This document shows, in pieces, positions 40,379 to 49,759 of a DNA stretch of 64,000 nt. The position numbers and the translations under genes were made by a program. This DNA is from Arenibacter sp. F26102 (GTDB taxonomy: Bacteria; Bacteroidota; Bacteroidia; Flavobacteriales; Flavobacteriaceae), in contig NZ_JALKBC010000010.1 in the NCBI RefSeq assembly GCF_023015865.1, positions 62,001-126,000 on the forward strand. Reading direction: 5' to 3'. Position 1 is the stretch's first letter. Each line of letters begins with the position of its first letter. The notes beneath the pieces are model-generated. The model was not told where the DNA came from and did no database searches. It saw only the letters and a program-made list of their open reading frames with translations.

Positions 40379-41698
40379 ATGATACAAAATAGAAGAAAAT
40401 TCATAAAAAGGAGCTCGCTTTTGGCTATGGGCACTGGGGCTGCATTTTTAATTCCAATGGACCTATTGGCTTCCATTAGAAGGAATATTAGTCCCAACGA
40501 TAAAATCGGGGTGGGCCTGATCGGTTGTAATGGTATGGGGTTTAGCGATTTAAGCTCCATGCTTAAAATGAGTGAAATTGAGGTTGTAGCCCTATGTGAT
40601 GTGGATGATAGTGTATTAAAAAAGAGAACATCCGATTTGGAAAAGGCCGGAATAAAAAAACCAAAGTTATATAAGGACTATAGAAAATTATTGGAGGATA
40701 AAGATGTTGATGTGGTAATTATTGGTACTCCTGATCACTGGCATTGCCTACAACTTTCCGATGCCGTAAAGGCAGGAAAGGATGTGTATTGCGAAAAACC
40801 TCTGGCCAATTCCATAGAGGAATGTAACCTTATGTTAAATTCTGTACAGGCAAGTGATCGAATGGTTCAAATAGGGCAATGGCAAAGGAGTCAGCCCCAT
40901 TTTGTGGATGCTATAGACTTTGTCCATTCCGGAAAATTGGGGGAAATTCGCTTGGCAAAAGCCTGGGCCTATCAAGGTTGGATGGGTTCTATTCCTGTTC
41001 TTCCCGATACCGCTACTCCTGCCGGAGTTGATTATGATATGTGGTTGGGGCCAGCACCCAAGAAACCTTTTAATGCCAATAGGTTCCATTTTAATTTTAG
41101 ATGGTACTGGGATTATGCAGGTGGATTAATGACAGATTGGGGTGTGCACCTCATGGATTATGCATTATATGGAATGAAAGCCAACACACCAAAATCGGTG
41201 ATGGCTTTGGGGGGTAAATTTGCCTATCCCAATGATGCTTCAGAAACTCCGGATACATTGCAGACCGTTTATGAATATGATGGTTTTTCAATTCTATGGG
41301 AACATGCCACAGGGATAGATAATGGTAATTACGGACGCAATCACGGAATCTCGTTTATTGGTAATAATGGTACCCTTGTTTTGGACCGCAATGGTTGGGA
41401 GGTAATTGCCGAAAAGGATAAAATGCAAAGCATAACGTTACAGCAAAACCAAGGCAACGGTCTAGACAAACACACCGTAAATTTTATTGAGGCAGTACAA
41501 TCCCGTGATGCTTCCAAGTTAAAAGCCCCTTTAAAAGTTGGCTATGATGCGGCCTTGGTGTGCCATATGGGAAATATTGCTTTTAAAACCGGCAACAGAA
41601 TTTATTGGGATAATTATGAGGGCAAATTTTCAGATGACAGTTCAAATGCTTTGATAAATGCCCATTACCACAACGGTTGGGAGTTGCCAATGGGATAA
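40379..41698 (+). CDS. Tat-exported Gfo/Idh/MocA-family oxidoreductase
   Basis: A 439-residue NAD(P)-dependent oxidoreductase with a twin-arginine signal (NRRKFIKRSSLLAMGTGAAF). The Rossmann motif is IGVGLIGCNGMG, the cofactor/substrate motif DVYCEKPLA, and the active-site His/Asp region DWGVHLMDYALYG. Exported members of this family act on glycosides in the periplasm, some as glycoside 3-oxidoreductases, with tightly bound cofactor. It heads the flavin redox island but is 167 bases from the next gene, so it may have its own transcript. Confidence 0.9.
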   Translation: MIQNRRKFIKRSSLLAMGTGAAFLIPMDLLASIRRNISPNDKIGVGLIGCNGMGFSDLSSMLKMSEIEVVALCDVDDSVLKKRTSDLEKAGIKKPKLYKDYRKLLEDKDVDVVIIGTPDHWHCLQLSDAVKAGKDVYCEKPLANSIEECNLMLNSVQASDRMVQIGQWQRSQPHFVDAIDFVHSGKLGEIRLAKAWAYQGWMGSIPVLPDTATPAGVDYDMWLGPAPKKPFNANRFHFNFRWYWDYAGGLMTDWGVHLMDYALYGMKANTPKSVMALGGKFAYPNDASETPDTLQTVYEYDGFSILWEHATGIDNGNYGRNHGISFIGNNGTLVLDRNGWEVIAEKDKMQSITLQQNQGNGLDKHTVNFIEAVQSRDASKLKAPLKVGYDAALVCHMGNIAFKTGNRIYWDNYEGKFSDDSSNALINAHYHNGWELPMG

Positions 41699-41865: not shown

Positions 41866-43026
41866 ATGTCAAAAGCTCAAATTTCTATTGGTCTTAAAAG
41901 GTTTGTCAAGTTCTTGCATTCTTTTAAGCTTTTGGTGCTTTTCATTATCCTTTGGCTTTTTATGTCCTTGGAATTACAAAATCCAACCCCTGGAAAAGAA
42001 AGGGCATTTGTAATCTACACTAAAGATTCCGTGCAACTGGAAGTTGATTTGATTTTTAATTCCAGCAATGAGCCAATTCAGTATTACTGTTATGTAGTTA
42101 CCCCGGTTTGTGAGGAAGGCGTATGTTATAATTTGCTCGCCGAAGTATATTGGGATCTTTTAGGCAATTTCGTGGATTATACAGAAGTGCCATTAGATCC
42201 ATTTACAAAATTTGATCATATCAAGTTTACTGCGGACGATCATGTTATAATGAAAGAAATACTAAAGGACAAAACCTCTCTACTTGCAAATTATAAGGCC
42301 GAGGACTTGGTAGATCACAGTATTCAAATTAAATCGGATGTTATAGATGGTGTTGCAGGAGCCACCTATAAATCACTTAGTGGAGCCGTGGTACGCGGAG
42401 CGGTCTACAGTTCACATACCCTGTGGCACATAGTAAATGGAGACGTGGCGGATAAAATTGTGGCCCATACCGAATCTTTGATGAATGAGGAATTATTGGT
42501 TTCAATGTTAAATTCCGATAATTACCATCTTCAATTCTATGCCTTGAACAAGATTGCTTCCGAGGATGAAAAGTTTACACCCTACCTTATTGGTTTGATA
42601 TCTAAGGGCAGTTCATATGTCCCGTATTTCGCTATTGAAAAAATACCGGACTGGGCATGGTCATCAGTCAAATATCAATCGCAAATAATAAGTCTTTTAA
42701 AAAAGGTGGAATTTAAAATGCAAAATGAAATACTTAATAGGCTTGTAGATAGAGACTTGGAAGGGGAGTCACTGACTGTTTTGGCCTCTAATTTAGGTTC
42801 TTTGGATAAATCCCAATTAAAGAAGGCATTTAAAATACTTGACCGCAATAAAGACAAACTTACATCTTTATCAATTAAGGAAATTTTATTACTATTGGAT
42901 TCCGAGGATAAGGAGATTTCCAAGGAGGCATATCAATTTTTGAATACCCATGAACACCAATTTAGGCCTGTTTCCAAAAAATTGAATGATTATAGAAAAA
43001 CATTAATGTCAAATTATAATAATTAA
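41866..43026 (+). CDS. membrane-anchored PVCxxGxC/GAT protein, copy 1 (possible flavin carrier)
   Basis: A 386-residue protein with one N-terminal anchor (FKLLVLFIILWLFMSLEL, ~20-37) and an extracytoplasmic remainder. Residues 75-87 hold three Cys in YCYVVTPVCEEGVC; YWDLLG follows. Residues 160-169 read IDGVAGATYK, resembling the [S/A]GAT flavin-attachment site of FMN-binding domains (Thr167 would be the acceptor). A C-terminal helical, HEAT-like half (~205-380) follows. It shares all these features with the gene at 47146. The stop is 4 bases from the FAD enzyme. No established function; flavin binding is my inference. Confidence 0.75.
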   Translation: MSKAQISIGLKRFVKFLHSFKLLVLFIILWLFMSLELQNPTPGKERAFVIYTKDSVQLEVDLIFNSSNEPIQYYCYVVTPVCEEGVCYNLLAEVYWDLLGNFVDYTEVPLDPFTKFDHIKFTADDHVIMKEILKDKTSLLANYKAEDLVDHSIQIKSDVIDGVAGATYKSLSGAVVRGAVYSSHTLWHIVNGDVADKIVAHTESLMNEELLVSMLNSDNYHLQFYALNKIASEDEKFTPYLIGLISKGSSYVPYFAIEKIPDWAWSSVKYQSQIISLLKKVEFKMQNEILNRLVDRDLEGESLTVLASNLGSLDKSQLKKAFKILDRNKDKLTSLSIKEILLLLDSEDKEISKEAYQFLNTHEHQFRPVSKKLNDYRKTLMSNYNN

Positions 43027-43030
43027 AACA

Positions 43031-44968
43031 ATGACAAAAAGAAGAGGATTTATGAAAACCATCGGATTGGGATCCGGTGCTTTTTTAATGGGCCCTATAT
43101 CTGTCTTTGGCAAAGACGCCGTGGACGGTGCGGAATTATTTGGAAAGCATGCTGAAAATTCGAATAAAGCTCAAACTCTTGTAGATACAGATGTCTACAG
43201 GAAAAAGTTTTACGAAACCGATGTGTTGATCGCTGGAGGTGGTATGGCAGGCATATGCGCCGCTTTGGCCGCCGCCAGGAATGGCAGCAAGGTAATTCTT
43301 ATCCAAGATAGATCAAGGTTGGGAGGGAACGCCAGTAGCGAAATAAGAATGCATATTTCTGGAGCCAGCCAGTTAAATCAAATATGGAGGGAAACCGGTA
43401 TTTTGGAAGAACTTGTATTGACCGAAGCCGTTCAAAACCCTCAACGCTCCTATGAAATGTGGGATTTTATTTTGTACGATAAGTTAATTTCTGAAGAGAA
43501 TATAACCCTATTGCTGGATACAGCACTATACGATGCTGAGGTAGTAGATGGAAAAATTAATCAGATTATGGCCCTTTGTTCACCTACCGAGGAGATTTCC
43601 GTAATTAAGGCTAAATTTTATGCTGACTGTACCGGTGATGCCACTTTGGCGGCTCAAGCGGGCGCACAATATATGCGTGGAAGGGAAGCAAAATCAAAAT
43701 GGGGTGAATCTCTGGCCGTAGATGTTGAAGATCAAAAAACAATGGGCAACAGTCTTTTGTTTACGGCAAAGAAATATGATAAAAGTATGCCCTACACGCC
43801 TCCAAAATGGGCTAGAAAGTATACGACAAAGGATTTTTTGCATCGCAATATTTCAACCTATGAATACGGTTATTGGTGGTTGGAATTAGGTGGTGAAATT
43901 GATATTGTACGTGATGGCCAACAGAATAGAAAGGATTTATTGGCAGTTCTTTTTGGGGTTTGGGATTATATTAAGAATTCGGGGAATCACCCAGATTCTG
44001 AAAATTGGGCATTGGATTCCATAGGGATGATTCCAGGTAAAAGGGAAAGTAGACGTGTGGAAGGTGATTATATCATGAAACAGGAAGACGTACAAGCAGC
44101 TACACTTTTTGAAGATAGAGTAGCCTATGGAGGATGGCCTTTGGATGATCACCCCCCAGGTGGAATGGACACCACTGGAGAAGTACCATATGTTTCCATT
44201 CCACTAAAAGGCCCATATTCTATTCCGTTTAGGTCGTTATACAGTAAAAATATAAATAATCTGCTGGTTGCCGGTCGAAATATAAGTGTTTCACACGTGG
44301 CCCTATCTTCCACCCGGGTAATGGCTACATGCAGCACTCTTGGCCAGGCCATTGGAACTGCAATGGACTATTGCAATAAAAATGGGATACTGCCTACTGA
44401 GCTAGGAAATAGTGCTGAGCATATAAAAATACTTCAACAAATATTACTTAGACAGGACCAGGCACTTCTTGGTGTGAAAAATGAGGATAAAAATGATTTG
44501 GCCAGATCTGCCAAGATTTCAGCTTCATCTGAAACTGAGGATGGCCGAGCTATAAATATAATCGATGGGTATAATAGGGAAGTTGGCGATGGCAATACCC
44601 ATAAATGGTGTGCTAATATTGAAAATGGTGAGCAATGGATATTGCTGAGTTGGAAAAAACCAGTCAAAATCAATAAAATCCAGCTAATGTTTGATACCGG
44701 ATTAGATCGCTTTTTACGCCTTTCTGCACAAGACTGGGTAAATGACGACCAAATTAGGGGCCAACAGCCTGAAACTGTGGCGGATTATAGTATTGAAGTA
44801 AAGGGCAAAAATATTGACAAAGTACTCCTTAACAATGAAAATAATTTTTTAAGACTTGTTAATCATAGTTTCGATCCCATTGAAATAAAGCAATTAAAAA
44901 TTAGGGTGACAAGGACCAATGGAGACCCTCTGGCCAAAATATTTGAAGTGCGTTGTTATCTTGAATAA
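43031..44968 (+). CDS. Tat-exported FAD-dependent oxidoreductase with discoidin-like domain
   Basis: A 645-residue enzyme. A Tat signal (KRRGFMKTIGLGSGAFLMG) leads to an FAD-binding fold: VLIAGGGMAGICAALAAA (66-83), RLGGNASSEIRMH (97-108), GKRESRRVEGDY, and the C-terminal FAD motif LLVAGRNISVSHVA. GGNASSE is the mark of the FAD_oxidored (PF12831) family. Residues ~495-645 form an F5/8 (discoidin)-like beta domain (SAKISASSETEDGRAINIID, then IKQLKIRVTRTNGDP). The domain suggests carbohydrate binding. Substrate unknown. Tightly coupled to the PVCxxGxC protein upstream. Confidence 0.9.
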   Translation: MTKRRGFMKTIGLGSGAFLMGPISVFGKDAVDGAELFGKHAENSNKAQTLVDTDVYRKKFYETDVLIAGGGMAGICAALAAARNGSKVILIQDRSRLGGNASSEIRMHISGASQLNQIWRETGILEELVLTEAVQNPQRSYEMWDFILYDKLISEENITLLLDTALYDAEVVDGKINQIMALCSPTEEISVIKAKFYADCTGDATLAAQAGAQYMRGREAKSKWGESLAVDVEDQKTMGNSLLFTAKKYDKSMPYTPPKWARKYTTKDFLHRNISTYEYGYWWLELGGEIDIVRDGQQNRKDLLAVLFGVWDYIKNSGNHPDSENWALDSIGMIPGKRESRRVEGDYIMKQEDVQAATLFEDRVAYGGWPLDDHPPGGMDTTGEVPYVSIPLKGPYSIPFRSLYSKNINNLLVAGRNISVSHVALSSTRVMATCSTLGQAIGTAMDYCNKNGILPTELGNSAEHIKILQQILLRQDQALLGVKNEDKNDLARSAKISASSETEDGRAINIIDGYNREVGDGNTHKWCANIENGEQWILLSWKKPVKINKIQLMFDTGLDRFLRLSAQDWVNDDQIRGQQPETVADYSIEVKGKNIDKVLLNNENNFLRLVNHSFDPIEIKQLKIRVTRTNGDPLAKIFEVRCYLE

Positions 44969-45312
44969 ATGAATTTTTATATTTAAACTTGTTTTTGGAT
45001 TATTGTACTAAGAATTACAAATTAGTATTTATTAAGGTACTTTCTCAACTCTACAAATGTTATAAAAGAACTTTAACTTTTGAATAATAATAAGCAATGT
45101 TAAAGGTTAAAAAAGGTATTTATTATGTCTTGTGAGTAATTTGTTATTTTGTTTTAACTTATCCCGTAGACGAGAAAAATAATAATGTAACTTAGAAGAA
45201 ATGAATATATCCACATTTCGCCATTTATAAATTTACCAAGAAAATATAACTAAAATTTAAGCTGCTATCGCCCTAGGGGCAAACCCATGTTTTAAAAATC
45301 AATTAAAATAAT
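44969..45312. other. 344-base gap inside the flavin island
   Basis: AT-rich, no gene, no strong hairpin and no exact -7 element. Motifs near 45090 and 45140 only approximate TAnnTTTG. Its length suggests the second module has its own promoter. Confidence 0.4.
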
Positions 45313-47100
45313 ATGAAATATCTGATTTTAACTTTGTGCTTTTTCAGTATAAATTTAACGATATCCCAAGATTTGTTGCTGGAAGCGGAAAGTTTTGACG
45401 ATAAAGGGGGGTGGGTCGTTGACCCCCAATTTATTGAACAAATGGGTTCTTCCTATCTTCAGGCCCATGGCATGGGTGAACCAGTGCAAAATGCGCAAAC
45501 CCAGGTGAACTTTAAAAAGAATGGTGAATATAAGGTTTGGGTACGAACCAAGAATTGGGTACCGGGAGAATGGGAAGCACCGGGAAAATTCCAGATAAAG
45601 GTAAATTCCTTGGTGTTGGAAAATACACTAGGCCTCCGTTCTGGTTGGGGTTGGGAATATGCAGGAGCTGTTCAGATAACGAATAAAAAGAATACTTTGG
45701 AACTTGTAGACCTTACAGGTTTCAACGGTCGCTGTGATGCCATCTATTTCACTACTTCCGACGTGGAACCACCTTCATCCATGAATAAGTTGGCCACTTG
45801 GAGGAAAACTGTTGTTATGGAGCCGTTGGCACCCAAAGTTACCAAGAAATATGACCTAGTTGTTGTAGGTGGAGGAATTGCTGGTTGCGCAGCGGCTATA
45901 GCGGCCGCAGAGCAAGGGCTTCAGGTTGCGTTGATCCACGATAGGCCTGTTTTGGGAGGTAATGCCAGTAGCGAAATTAGGGTACATACCCTGGGTATAT
46001 ATGGTAATTTTGAACGGATTCTTAAAAAGTTGGATACGGAACATTATCCCAATGGATCTCCCGAAGCACATAAAGACCAAATAAAAAGAGATAACAATGT
46101 AAAAAGTTATGATAATATTTCCCTCTATTTAAATTGGAGGGCGTATGATGCAAAAGCTGTTGAAAGTAAAATCAGTTATGTAGATGCTCGTCAAACAGCA
46201 TCAGGAGAACGTATACGCTTTGAGGCGCCACTTTTTGTGGATTCAACGGGAGATGGTTGGATAGGTTTTTGGGCTGGTGCAAAATTTTCTTATGGACGTG
46301 AAAGTGTTGATCAATATGGGGAAGAATGGAAAGAGCATGGGGAATTATGGAGTCCAAAACAACCCGACAATGCTGTAATGGGATCTTCGGTGCTTTGGCG
46401 TTCCTATGAAGCGGACCAGCTGGAAGAATTCCCAGAGGTACCTTGGGCCATGCCTGTGGCCAGGGATTATGCAAAGGTAAAAGGGGAATGGCAGTGGGAG
46501 TTTAGTCGTAATGACCTTAATCAAATAGACGATGCCGAGGAAATTCGCGATCATATGCTGAGGGCTATTTATGGTTCTTTCGGCAATGCAAAAAAATTAC
46601 CTGAAAATGCCAATCGAAAATTGGAATGGGTATCCTATCTAGTTGGTAAACGCGAATCCAGAAGATTGGTCGGGGATTATATATTTACATTGAACGATGC
46701 CAAATCCGGCCGCTCTTTCCCCGATGGGGTTGTGGAGGAAACTAGGGAAGTGGATGTTCATTATCAAACGGTGTTGGAGGATGAGAAAAATCCTGACTTT
46801 ATTTCAGAGGCGCTTTTTTATAAAACTCCTAAATATTATATCCCTTACCGAAGCTTGTATTCAAAAAATATAAGTAACTTATTTATGGCCGGTAGAAATT
46901 TTAGTACCTCCCACGTTGGCCTGGGTGGACCAAGGGTAATGAGGACCACGGGGCAAATGGGTGCCGCTGTAGGTTTTGCGGCATCACTTTGTAAAAAGTA
47001 CGATGTAAATCCTAGGGATATTTATACAGGGTATTTGGATGAATATATGGATCTAATAGAAAAACAAAAATATATACCTATTCCAGAATCCAAGAAATAG
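45313..47100 (+). CDS. exported FAD-dependent oxidoreductase with carbohydrate-binding-like domain
   Basis: A 595-residue paralogue of the enzyme at 43031, but with a Sec signal (YLILTLCFFSINLTISQ). Residues ~20-150 are a beta-sandwich resembling CBM6/35-type modules (LLLEAESFDDKGGW, YKVWVRTKNW, GWGWEYAG, LVDLTGFNGRCDAIYF). The FAD fold follows: DLVVVGGGIAGCAAAIAAA (181-199), VLGGNASSEIRVH (213-225), GKRESRRLVGDYIF and LFMAGRNFSTSHVGLGG. Extracytoplasmic; substrate probably a sugar or polysaccharide-derived compound by inference from the accessory domain. A PVCxxGxC protein follows 45 bases later. Confidence 0.9.
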   Translation: MKYLILTLCFFSINLTISQDLLLEAESFDDKGGWVVDPQFIEQMGSSYLQAHGMGEPVQNAQTQVNFKKNGEYKVWVRTKNWVPGEWEAPGKFQIKVNSLVLENTLGLRSGWGWEYAGAVQITNKKNTLELVDLTGFNGRCDAIYFTTSDVEPPSSMNKLATWRKTVVMEPLAPKVTKKYDLVVVGGGIAGCAAAIAAAEQGLQVALIHDRPVLGGNASSEIRVHTLGIYGNFERILKKLDTEHYPNGSPEAHKDQIKRDNNVKSYDNISLYLNWRAYDAKAVESKISYVDARQTASGERIRFEAPLFVDSTGDGWIGFWAGAKFSYGRESVDQYGEEWKEHGELWSPKQPDNAVMGSSVLWRSYEADQLEEFPEVPWAMPVARDYAKVKGEWQWEFSRNDLNQIDDAEEIRDHMLRAIYGSFGNAKKLPENANRKLEWVSYLVGKRESRRLVGDYIFTLNDAKSGRSFPDGVVEETREVDVHYQTVLEDEKNPDFISEALFYKTPKYYIPYRSLYSKNISNLFMAGRNFSTSHVGLGGPRVMRTTGQMGAAVGFAASLCKKYDVNPRDIYTGYLDEYMDLIEKQKYIPIPESKK

Positions 47101-47145
47101 TTTGTAAAACGCCTCTGTATCCATGAAAGAAGTATGTAAATCATC

Positions 47146-48261
47146 ATGAAAATAATAATTGCTACTTTACTATTTTGTGGATTGGGACTTGTATGGACTC
47201 AAAAAACAGACGTGACTCTTAATGGTGTTTCCCAACATAAAACGCTCAGTAAAAAACCGGAGTTCTTTGCCTTGGAATGGCAGGAAGGTTTGGTGTTAAA
47301 AAATAAACCAACCCCATATTTTATAGAAGTAGAGACCTTGGGCAATCAGAACGTTGATATCCTTGTTACCGCGCAGAATAGACCAGTACTATATACAGTT
47401 GATATTTGTACTCCGGTCTGTGCAGATGGCGAATGCAGGTTAATGTATCTTACACTTTATTGGAATTTATTGGGAGCATATGCTGGTTATGATAAGGTGG
47501 AAGGCCAGACATTGACGAAACATGATCATGAGGAATTCTTGGAACAGGATTATGAAAAATTGCATCACTTATTAATGGATGACAATTCAATTCTGAAAAG
47601 AAAGAAGATTGATGAGTTGGTGGAAAAACCCGAAGATTCAGAACTCGACGGTGCAGACGCCAAAGCGGGGGCTACAATAACCGAGGTAAAGGAATCTGTA
47701 GTAGATGGGGCTCTTTATTCCTGTTATGTAGCTTGGAATATAGCGCACGGAACCATTAAGGGAGAACTACAGGATTATACCACATCCAACTTTGATAAAG
47801 AAATGAAGGGCTATATGCTCATGAGCAACGAGCAGGATTATCAAATGTATGCGCTTAAGTCTTTGAATGATGAAGAGTATATTGATTATGAGGACCGAAT
47901 AGTACAAATTTTCAATAAGGGTATTCCCTTGGTCCGTACGTATATTGTACAAAATCTTCCTAAATTGTTCTGGGAAACCGAAGATCTCCAAATGCCTTTT
48001 TGGGAAAGCTTTGCTGCAGTAGATATTAACAATAGAAGTTTGTTGTTAAATCATATTCAACAGGCTCCCGTTGAGGTTTTGGTTTTATTGGGCGGCAATT
48101 TGGAGCTAATGACAAAAAATCAGCTCAAAGCTTACCTGGCGGCAATTGAAAAAAATGAAATGGCTAATCCACAAATTAACGCACAGCTTTTGCGGTTTAC
48201 AAATTCGGGTAACCATACTTACGCCTATATTGTAGCCGAATTTTTGGAAGAATTTGAATAA
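47146..48261 (+). CDS. exported PVCxxGxC/GAT protein, copy 2 (possible flavin carrier)
   Basis: A 371-residue paralogue of the gene at 41866, with a signal peptide (IIIATLLFCGLGLVWTQ) instead of an anchor. Three Cys at 88, 92 and 97 lie in DICTPVCADGEC; YWNLLG, KHDHEEF and DDNSIL align with the same text in copy 1, and DGADAKAGATITE (168-180) keeps the GAT motif. The helical C-terminal half (~215-371) is also shared. The two copies lie on the outer sides of the two FAD enzymes. No known function. Confidence 0.75.
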   Translation: MKIIIATLLFCGLGLVWTQKTDVTLNGVSQHKTLSKKPEFFALEWQEGLVLKNKPTPYFIEVETLGNQNVDILVTAQNRPVLYTVDICTPVCADGECRLMYLTLYWNLLGAYAGYDKVEGQTLTKHDHEEFLEQDYEKLHHLLMDDNSILKRKKIDELVEKPEDSELDGADAKAGATITEVKESVVDGALYSCYVAWNIAHGTIKGELQDYTTSNFDKEMKGYMLMSNEQDYQMYALKSLNDEEYIDYEDRIVQIFNKGIPLVRTYIVQNLPKLFWETEDLQMPFWESFAAVDINNRSLLLNHIQQAPVEVLVLLGGNLELMTKNQLKAYLAAIEKNEMANPQINAQLLRFTNSGNHTYAYIVAEFLEEFE

Positions 48262-48319: not shown

Positions 48320-49759
48320 ATGATATCATTCCTATTATCAATTGTAGCTTTAATACTTGGTTATTTTACGTACGGAAAATTTGTGGAACGTATTTTTGGC
48401 GTGGATAAGGATAGGGAGACTCCGGCCGTTAGGCTTAGGGATGATGTAGATTTTATGACATTGCCCACTTGGAAGGTTTTTTTGATCCAATTTTTAAATA
48501 TAGCGGGTTTGGGGCCAATTTTTGGTGCTATCGCAGGTGCCATGTTCGGACCTGCAGCCTTTTTGTGGATTGTACTGGGGAGTATTTTTGCAGGGGCAGT
48601 TCACGACTATTTTTCAGGAATGCTGTCTATAAGGCACGATGGACTGAGCATTAGCGAAGTGGTGGGGATTTATCTCGGTACCACCGCTAAACAATTTATG
48701 CGTTTTTTCTCTGTAGTACTTTTGATATTCGTAGGGACCGTTTTTTTGGTGGGACCCGCAAAAATAATCGATGGTATGACCGGGAATATCTTGAGCGTTT
48801 GGATTTGGGTAGCCATCATTTTGGTTTATTATATTCTTTCCACATTATTGCCCATAGATAAATTAATAAGCAAGCTTTACCCCATATTTGGTGTGGCCAT
48901 GTTACTTATGGCCGTTGGACTATTAATAGCCCTTTTTTTTGGGGATTATAATATTCCTGAATTGGTGCCCAGTAATTTAAGAAATATGACCAATGACCCT
49001 GAGGCAACTCCATTGTTTCCAATTCTCTTTATAACCATTGCCTGTGGTGCCATTTCCGGATTCCATGCTACCCAGTCTCCATTAATGGCACGCTGTATGA
49101 ATAACGAAACGCTAGGAAGAAAGATTTTTTACGGAACAATGGTAACGGAGGGCATTGTAGCATTGATCTGGGCTGCAGCCGCTATGACCTTCTTTGGAAA
49201 TGTGGAAGAATTAAATGGGGCAATGCTCGCCAACAACAACAACGCAGCTTGGGCGGCCAATGAAATATCACTTAACATGTTGGGTAAGATTGGAGGGGTA
49301 TTGGCTTTGTTGGGAATTGTAGCGGCTCCGATTACTTCAGGAGATACTGCCTTTAGGTCTGCTCGTTTAATACTATCCGATATTTTCAAGTCCAACCAAA
49401 AAAAAATATTGAACAGGCTACTTATTAGCTTGCCGCTATTTATCATAGCCTTCGCACTTACACAGATTGACTTTGGAATAATATGGCGCTATTTTGCTTG
49501 GAGCAACCAAACCTTGGCCATGATCGTGCTTTGGACAATTACGGCTTATTTGATCTATGAAAATAAGGCTTATTGGGTTACGCTATTACCTGCAATTTTT
49601 ATGACTATGGTATGTAGTACCTATATTTTAATTGCCCCGGAAGGTTTCCAATTGCCAAACGAAATTTCTTATATAGGAGGTACTCTAATAACATTGACCA
49701 TTACAATTGCATTTTGGGTATATACTTCCCAAAAGAAAAAAGTCTTTGTTGGGGTATGA
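48320..49759 (+). CDS. CstA-family carbon starvation transporter (short form)
   Basis: A 479-residue, ~12-span membrane protein with the CstA signature near the N-terminus: FLIQFLNIAGLGPIFGAIAG, FLWIVLGSIFAGAVHDYFSG, and SGFHATQSPLMARCM later. E. coli CstA (701 residues) is linked to peptide and pyruvate uptake; the shorter form here is common outside proteobacteria. It closes the flavin island (58 bases after copy 2) and may import its product. A hairpin follows. Confidence 0.9.
   Translation: MISFLLSIVALILGYFTYGKFVERIFGVDKDRETPAVRLRDDVDFMTLPTWKVFLIQFLNIAGLGPIFGAIAGAMFGPAAFLWIVLGSIFAGAVHDYFSGMLSIRHDGLSISEVVGIYLGTTAKQFMRFFSVVLLIFVGTVFLVGPAKIIDGMTGNILSVWIWVAIILVYYILSTLLPIDKLISKLYPIFGVAMLLMAVGLLIALFFGDYNIPELVPSNLRNMTNDPEATPLFPILFITIACGAISGFHATQSPLMARCMNNETLGRKIFYGTMVTEGIVALIWAAAAMTFFGNVEELNGAMLANNNNAAWAANEISLNMLGKIGGVLALLGIVAAPITSGDTAFRSARLILSDIFKSNQKKILNRLLISLPLFIIAFALTQIDFGIIWRYFAWSNQTLAMIVLWTITAYLIYENKAYWVTLLPAIFMTMVCSTYILIAPEGFQLPNEISYIGGTLITLTITIAFWVYTSQKKKVFVGV

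Follow-up and report, generated by a model that had tools for sequence, protein, structure and literature searches.

The ApbE flavinylation signature is D-x-x-[S/T]-G-A-[S/T], of which the last residue bears FMN, according to the available part of PMC12052999. In the accessible parts of two surveys, Meheust 2021 (PMC8238504) and Huang 2024 (PMC11334425), ApbE flavinylation belongs so far mainly to respiration and metal redox, and DUF2271, DUF3570, Flavodoxin_4 and FMN_red proteins are ApbE substrates found via apbE co-localisation and a [S/T]GA[S/T]-like motif. The stretch described here, called the window, comprises 64,000 nucleotides of Arenibacter sp. F26102 (contig NZ_JALKBC010000010.1, positions 62,001 to 126,000 of the forward strand) and has four neighbouring genes, which encode two FAD enzymes of the PF12831 family (FAD1 and FAD2) and two homologous partner proteins (CAR1 and CAR2), referred to as carriers. 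The preferred reading, with a probability of about 0.8, is that such genes encode an extracytoplasmic FAD enzyme and a covalently flavinylated FMN carrier, which are used in polysaccharide-utilisation clusters. The homology, the pairing, the co-inheritance, the motif and the occurrence of ApbE within the operons of one large subclade are well supported computationally, and we infer FMN attachment, electron passage between FAD enzyme and carrier, its direction and the substrate.

The four open reading frames (ORFs), all on the + strand, are CAR1 (41866-43026, 386 aa), FAD1 (43031-44968, 645 aa), FAD2 (45313-47100, 595 aa) and CAR2 (47146-48261, 371 aa), and their coordinates bear out the position and order given in a preliminary description made from the letters alone. 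The spacings are 4 bp between CAR1 and FAD1, 344 bp between FAD1 and FAD2, 45 bp between FAD2 and CAR2, and 58 bp between CAR2 and the following CstA-type gene. FAD1, which has a Tat-like leader and a C-terminal F5/8-type domain, matches PF12831 (E 4.3e-86), PF24135 (E 5.4e-8) and PF00754 (E 9.4e-7). FAD2, which has a Sec-like leader and about 160 residues N-terminal of the FAD domain, matches PF12831 at residues 181-572 (E 1.5e-64). Both pass the PF12831 cut-off of 27 bits, with 290 bits for FAD1 and 219 bits for FAD2, and cover positions 1-415 and 1-409 of the 416 in the profile. The motifs that had been described as shared are present in both copies: GGNASSEIR and GKRESRR in FAD1 and FAD2 (32% identity over 402 residues, E 1e-47), and PVCxxGxC, YW[DN]LLG and GAT in CAR1 and CAR2 (28% over 308 residues, E 9e-38).

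In the proposed mechanism, each half of the cluster would be one extracytoplasmic two-protein redox unit. The substrate that FAD1 or FAD2 would oxidise or reduce is most likely a sugar or an oligosaccharide set free by the polysaccharide-utilisation locus, and CAR1 or CAR2, built of a diverged FMN_bind domain and a HEAT-like half, would be the dedicated electron carrier of the adjoining enzyme. An ApbE transferase would join FMN covalently to the last Thr of D-x-x-[S/T/A]-G-A-T. The favoured direction would be from the sugar-like substrate to FAD, to the carrier FMN and to the respiratory chain, and the presence of two different units side by side suggests that two redox reactions act on one substrate or on related ones. 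The preliminary description had proposed a redox pathway for a sugar-like compound; of this, the extracytoplasmic unit is favoured, while the substrate is suggested by the genomic context only.

The main rival explanation, which is unlikely, reverses the flow: the carrier would feed electrons to the FAD enzyme, which would act as an extracytoplasmic reductase in the manner of flavinylated fumarate and urocanate reductases, except that its FMN domain would be on a separate chain and not fused. In the available part of Meheust 2021 (PMC8238504), FMN_bind domains pass electrons to PF00890 reductases. Among solved proteins, the sequences nearest the FAD profile belong to periplasmic flavocytochrome c3 fumarate reductases (E 3e-13, over the Rossmann part only), a likeness that fits an extracytoplasmic FAD enzyme with a separate redox centre and that is silent on direction. 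Against a reductase stand the difference between PF12831 and PF00890, the presence of the module in sugar clusters with GH2, GH97, GH127 and sulfatases, and the named representatives of the module-bearing organisms, which we take to be mostly aerobic; none of these points settles the direction.

The assignment of the carriers as electron-transfer proteins by way of FMN draws on the GAT motif, which fits the ApbE signature once Ala is allowed at position 4 (D-x-x-[S/T/A]-G-A-[S/T]). Under the motif definition in the available part of PMC12052999, the predicted flavinylation motif is DGVAGAT in CAR1 (42346-42366, FMN on T167) and DAKAGAT in CAR2 (47656-47676, FMN on T177); both are Ala forms and neither fits the strict published motif. 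Among the 53 ORFs of at least 150 aa in the window, only CAR1 and CAR2 match D..[STA]GA[ST], and the motif is therefore more than chance. The same Ala variant, DALAGAT, is found in the NqrC of the window genome itself (NCBIfam NF003753, E 1.7e-125), and NqrC is a classic FMN-threonine subunit. As the GAT motif fits a covalent FMN site, the earlier designation of each FAD enzyme and its neighbour as an electron-transfer pair is better grounded than its author knew.

Relatives were collected by a genome scan with seven carriers, which gave 183 relatives, of which the best 80 loci, all Bacteroidota to judge from their record titles, were kept; the sample was made of Bacteroidota genomes and a plasmid search, whose two matches are Bacteroidota too. 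The motif D..[STA]GA[ST] is present in 83 of the 84 carriers of the 80 loci and missing from all 649 of the remaining mechanical ORFs with a length of 250 aa or more in these loci, a count that is not fully independent, because the profile that defines the carriers includes the motif region. The wider set of carriers has 97 rows, of which three loci are present twice (L024/L096, L026/L085 and L028/L095), so 94 are distinct. A filter at 85% identity reduces the 97 to 66, of which 65 enter the domain alignment, L052 being left out. Among the 94 distinct carriers, one column of the Cys pair is conserved in 93 and the other in 94, and YW[DN]LLG retains its Trp and Gly in all 94. The Cys pair, placed by column conservation among relatives, is C82 and C87 in CAR1 (CEEGVC, 42109-42126) and C92 and C97 in CAR2 (CADGEC, 47419-47436). 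A heme or thioredoxin-like motif is rejected for want of CxxCH and CxxC, and the C-x4-C spacing would be more like that of a disulfide.

It is improbable that the carrier is a chaperone, an anchor or a substrate-binding subunit, with the GAT motif as a structural coincidence. The HEAT-like half and the conserved Cys pair could do docking, and Ala stands at position 4 in 34 of the 94 distinct carriers, the others having the strict motif (57) or deviating from it (three, HAVSGAS, DALSGST and DAVTGET). A coincidence is opposed by the 649 other ORFs without the motif, by the FMN_bind-like domain and by ApbE in the operon of a subclade.

The fold of the carriers was approached by structural models and profile comparison. 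Neither CAR1 nor CAR2 reaches the cut-off of any Pfam or NCBIfam family. FMN_bind is the commonest weak Pfam match among 65 members (18 members, best E 0.0056), followed by NigD_N-like (8). The full CAR2 model has a pLDDT of 81.9, with a beta-rich N-domain and a C-terminal half of helical repeats, in which HEAT/ARM repeat structures match residues 217-371 by VIA-align; this HEAT-like half is placed at 47794-48258 in CAR2 and, by alignment to CAR2 and its model, at 42484-43023 in CAR1, and may perhaps have a docking role. Because the VIA-align rows of the full model are mainly of the HEAT-like half, the N-domain of CAR2 (47257-47823) was modelled alone with AlphaFold2 from 65 sequences, with a pLDDT of 86.4 and a motif loop below 50; the corresponding domain of CAR1, by alignment to the modelled one, is at 41959-42513. 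The top six VIA-align rows for the isolated domain are RnfG/NqrC chains, with Z from 6.6 to 4.8 over 121-140 residues; five of them are RNF G-subunit entries (7zc6, 8rb8, 8ahx, 8rb9 and 9eri), which come from three organisms, and the other is NqrC 4xhf. A second NqrC, 3lwx, has a Z of 3.4 over 134 residues. Comparison of the carriers with an FMN_bind profile by hhalign gives P 2e-4 and Prob 45%, while five unrelated profiles and a reversed control stay below 1%; the FMN_bind side was made of 9 proteins from 20 loci, chosen by a rule that required the motif. From these models and alignments, the carriers probably have as their N-domain a strongly diverged form of FMN_bind (RnfG/NqrC). With Foldseek, neither the full carrier model nor the N-domain against viral models had a significant match, and none of the six rows from a search of PDB sequences with the carrier profile is significant; one of them is suggestive, the Clostridiaceae FMN domain 8p2b (E 1.6, over the motif region).

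ApbE is present on the same strand within 2.5 kb in 22 of the 25 pairs in which the carrier gene precedes the FAD gene (CAR-FAD). Outside the 80 loci, an operon (L029) has FAD, ApbE and carrier genes in this order, with ApbE at E 1.8e-77 by Pfam, and another (L031) also holds ApbE (E 1.6e-78). The window genome has four ApbE genes, none of them inside the window cluster. One ApbE gene (G000:C1:57392-58228) is on the same contig as the module, about 4 kb before the window and some 46 kb away from it.

The preliminary description held that each FAD enzyme has its own partner and would have been contradicted by carriers found mostly away from FAD oxidoreductases or by unrelated phylogenies. In the sampled Bacteroidota, a same-strand PF12831 gene adjoins 83 of the 84 carriers in the 80 loci, and the only unpaired one (L052), which begins 56 bases from a contig end, was scored as a miss; these locus counts are not independent, because the 80 loci are the closest relatives, akin to one another and phylogenetically clumped. 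Home-built profiles, made from between two and about 17 proteins, served to identify the neighbours, and Pfam confirmed samples of them only. In whole-genome samples, matches were found in 4 of 295 genomes of the class and in 10 of 395 of the phylum, the window genome being in both; two of the ten phylum matches, G396 (E 1.4e-4) and G145 (E 8.2e-4), cover the helical half only and were not counted as carriers. PF12831 is in the cluster of 12 of the 13 carriers of these samples, three of which are from the window genome and three of which are loci also among the 80. Together with trees that correlate and units that are inherited together, described below, these counts uphold the claim of a dedicated partner. 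On a Flammeovirga plasmid, the NCBI annotation has an FAD-dependent oxidoreductase, a hypothetical protein, which is the carrier (DGRSGAT), and a sulfatase in a row, and in a Persicobacter relative a sulfatase lies between the carrier and the FAD gene.

It is improbable that FAD enzyme and carrier adjoin merely as fellow passengers of polysaccharide-utilisation loci, with no joint work. Some PF12831 genes are without a carrier, and in the two relatives from plasmids the FAD enzyme adjoins the carrier in L178 and is separated from it by a sulfatase in L179. Passengers would not account well for the tightness of the 83 pairs, of which 65 overlap or are at most 30 bp apart (median gap -4 bp, maximum 376), nor for pairs that appear or are missing as units in a single slot, nor for congruent trees. 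The gene order is FAD-CAR in 58 of these pairs and CAR-FAD in 25.

The distances in the carrier and enzyme trees, for 96 pairs, have a Mantel r of 0.76, while the best of 2000 permutations reaches 0.19, and thus the phylogenies agree. A comparison of paralogues within ten genomes, meant to reduce the effect of species history, was positive in 16 of 16 cases, which are not independent and of which one is near zero (0.02). Of the 51 genomes searched, 8 hold FAD1 proper (>1200 bits), three of these having served to build the query, and CAR1 adjoins it in all eight (the window, L102, L082 and L169-L173), five of which were not used for the query. A single Arenibacter slot, between the Gfo/Idh/MocA and CstA genes, holds both pairs in the window, FAD2-CAR2 alone in L043-L047 (the type was checked by BLAST for L043 and L046) and CAR1-FAD1 alone in L172 and L173. 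FAD/carrier pairs come and go as whole units, by gain or by loss. Five of the eight genomes with FAD1 (window, L082, L102, L169 and L171) carry both units on one strand, side by side or no more than about 10.4 kb apart; two others have them on separate contigs, and the last has a contig of only 4.7 kb. The order is FAD2-CAR2-CAR1-FAD1 in Membranihabitans and CAR-FAD-ApbE-CAR1-FAD1 in Dyadobacter, so the mirror-image order emphasised at first is not conserved and appears incidental, while the presence of two units together is recurrent. A recent tandem or inverted duplication without functional meaning, to which the homology of both modules might point, is refuted because FAD1 and FAD2 are separate old lineages, each closer to its counterparts in other genera (FAD1 66% identical in Dyadobacter and 60% in Membranihabitans, FAD2 69-76% in Membranihabitans, Flavilitoribacter and Flagellimonas) than to the other (32%).

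Besides the dependence within the counts given above, several observations weigh against a flavinylated carrier that serves each PF12831 enzyme. CAR1 and CAR2 have no match to FMN_bind (PF04205, cut-off 22 bits) even at E up to 10, and for 47 of the 65 members no such match appears even at E 1. Every VIA-align Z is below 8, and the NqrC row (4.8) ties with an unrelated row (Z 4.7, 66 residues), from which it differs by a longer alignment only. Foldseek gave no significant match of the N-domain against the PDB, where NqrC is at rank 9 with E 1.6. With hhalign, Prob reaches only 45%, and the confident part of the alignment, 29 columns under default settings, is outside the motif; GAT aligns on GAT only when the settings are relaxed. 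ApbE is on the same strand within 2.5 kb in none of the 58 FAD-CAR pairs of the 80 loci, and since the window cluster has none either, flavinylation there would need an unlinked ApbE. The carrier of one sampled genome, G191 (L032, 9734-11044), with the motif DGVTGAT, has no FAD neighbour, and this genome is without a full-length PF12831 gene; therefore the redox partner of this orphan carrier, if any, is something else. In the window genome, 4 of the 7 full-length PF12831 genes are without a carrier. One pair, L077_2, is discordant between the carrier and enzyme trees, and the clusters revealed no membrane electron acceptor.

The discordant pair (L077:2984-6086) has a carrier that groups near CAR1 and an FAD enzyme that groups with the CAR-FAD-ApbE type, possibly by a partner swap. 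A third pair in the window genome (G000:C3:109703-112086, the same as L007:7701-10237) has the strict motif DAVSGAT, adjoins a sulfatase and is near a Gfo/Idh/MocA gene. Among the enzymes, a PF12831 protein of 1056 aa (L030:6322-9492), paired with a carrier, has three matched stretches and is perhaps fused or doubled. A third PF12831 type, of about 760-770 aa (L056:10791-13079, L175:14673-16991, L176:8694-10985 and L177:15423-17723), follows a transporter, which is a sodium:solute symporter by Pfam in L056, and has no carrier of its own.

Two genes flank the module in the window. The Gfo/Idh/MocA oxidoreductase (40379-41698, + strand; PF19051 E 1.7e-23, PF01408 E 6.3e-18), exported by a leader that reads as Tat-like, adjoins the module in Arenibacter and is in the same slot in L043, L046, L080, L172 and L173; against the NCBIfam glycoside 3-dehydrogenase BT_2158 (NF058561) it scores 173 bits and does not reach the cut-off of 750. 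The CstA-type transporter (48320-49759, + strand; PF02554 E 4.2e-59, 201 bits against a cut-off of 27) scores 86 of the 1188 bits of the pyruvate symporter equivalog NF011590, which is not reached. Among FAD-CAR pairs, CstA is on the same strand within 2.5 kb in 20 of 58 (in CAR-FAD pairs, 1 of 25), sulfatases are near 15 of 58 and Gfo/Idh/MocA is near 8 of 58, so the two flanking genes named in the preliminary description are recurrent and not constant. CAR2 shares 92% identity with its counterparts in A. arenosicollis and A. hampyeongensis, and the gene order is shared with Arenibacter. Export signs were read from the N-termini: Sec-like leaders in FAD2 and CAR2, the Tat-like RRGFMK in FAD1 and a hydrophobic N-terminal segment in CAR1. 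A hydropathy check gives weak support, as all 92 carriers and 79 of 92 FAD enzymes pass it, yet it is also passed by 308 of 477 other ORFs. In scans of the cluster, predicted promoters are at chance level (30 found, 28.0 expected) and predicted terminators slightly over it (10 found, 6.9 expected).

The stretches around the relatives contain SusC/SusD-like genes (by reading), sulfatases, GH2, GH97, GH127 and fucosidase. One of them (L060) has a 2-keto-3-deoxygalactonate kinase, a KDPG aldolase, a mandelate-racemase-type enzyme and an aldehyde dehydrogenase, a set that appears to resemble red-algal galactan catabolism. In Zobellia (L024, the same locus as L096), a protein with DUF7133 and cytochrome c (L024:15491-17752, by Pfam) is two genes from FAD2 and near FAD2-CAR2-CstA, and ORFs of equal length, 753 aa, are present in L064, L071 and L072; this protein could possibly be a further electron acceptor or a parallel sugar dehydrogenase. 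Proteins of 826-842 aa, which share SGIYP[HQ]LAMYN and belong to no Pfam family, are beside the module in L042 (3527-6055) and L107 (5356-7836).

Neither PF12831 nor polysaccharide appears in the main texts of Meheust 2021 (PMC8238504) and Huang 2024 (PMC11334425), as far as these are accessible. Because the surveys, in these parts, describe flavinylated classes without either, the carriers would be an unannotated family within a known kind of chemistry, that of ApbE-flavinylated electron carriers, and no new chemistry. In the open-access subset searched, no paper that ties flavinylation to polysaccharide utilisation was found, which is not the same as absence from print; in the available parts, PMC4164334 merely counts ApbE genes in Flavobacteriaceae, and the carrageenan regulon paper PMC5698469 has FR/SR and UNK genes in related loci that could not be matched to the module, and PMC5613140 and PMC11345257 shed no light on it. 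In the literature searched, no natural electron partner was found for the PF12831 enzymes of Bacteroidota sugar clusters. If the preferred reading is true, it names the electron partner of these recurring enzymes, gives a chemistry to an unannotated carrier family and connects ApbE flavinylation with the degradation of polysaccharides from algae and plants. The chances are even for a wider proposal, in which an undescribed class of covalently flavinylated carriers, with an FMN_bind-like domain and a HEAT-like dock, serves the PF12831 enzymes of polysaccharide-utilisation loci in Bacteroidota, sugars or oligosaccharides are oxidised outside the cytoplasm and give their electrons to respiration before uptake, and loci exchange plug-in cassettes of enzyme and carrier that differ in specificity.

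Extracytoplasmic sugar dehydrogenases of the GMC and PQQ types oxidise sugars and pass electrons to a carrier, usually a cytochrome, and their folds differ from that of PF12831 enzymes. The recognition of DUF2271, DUF3570, Flavodoxin_4 and FMN_red as ApbE substrates followed the same logic of discovery, for other domains that were tested by co-expression, whereas the carriers described here are known from sequence. Like NqrC and RnfG (PF04205), the carriers are predicted to be extracytoplasmic and have an ApbE-type motif that ends in the putative FMN threonine, a probably similar fold and, in the window copies, the Ala variant of the genome's own NqrC. Unlike NqrC and RnfG, the window carriers are not recognised by Pfam or NCBIfam, and the carriers have a HEAT-like half and a conserved C-x4-C; their partner is a soluble PF12831 FAD enzyme, while that of NqrC and RnfG is the NQR or RNF membrane complex. 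The arrangement is also like that of the flavinylated fumarate and urocanate reductases, as described in the available part of PMC8238504, in that an extracytoplasmic FAD catalytic protein would be served by a covalent FMN domain. It differs from these PF00890 enzymes by PF12831 catalysis, by an FMN domain encoded in a separate gene and by its association with polysaccharide utilisation rather than anaerobic respiration.

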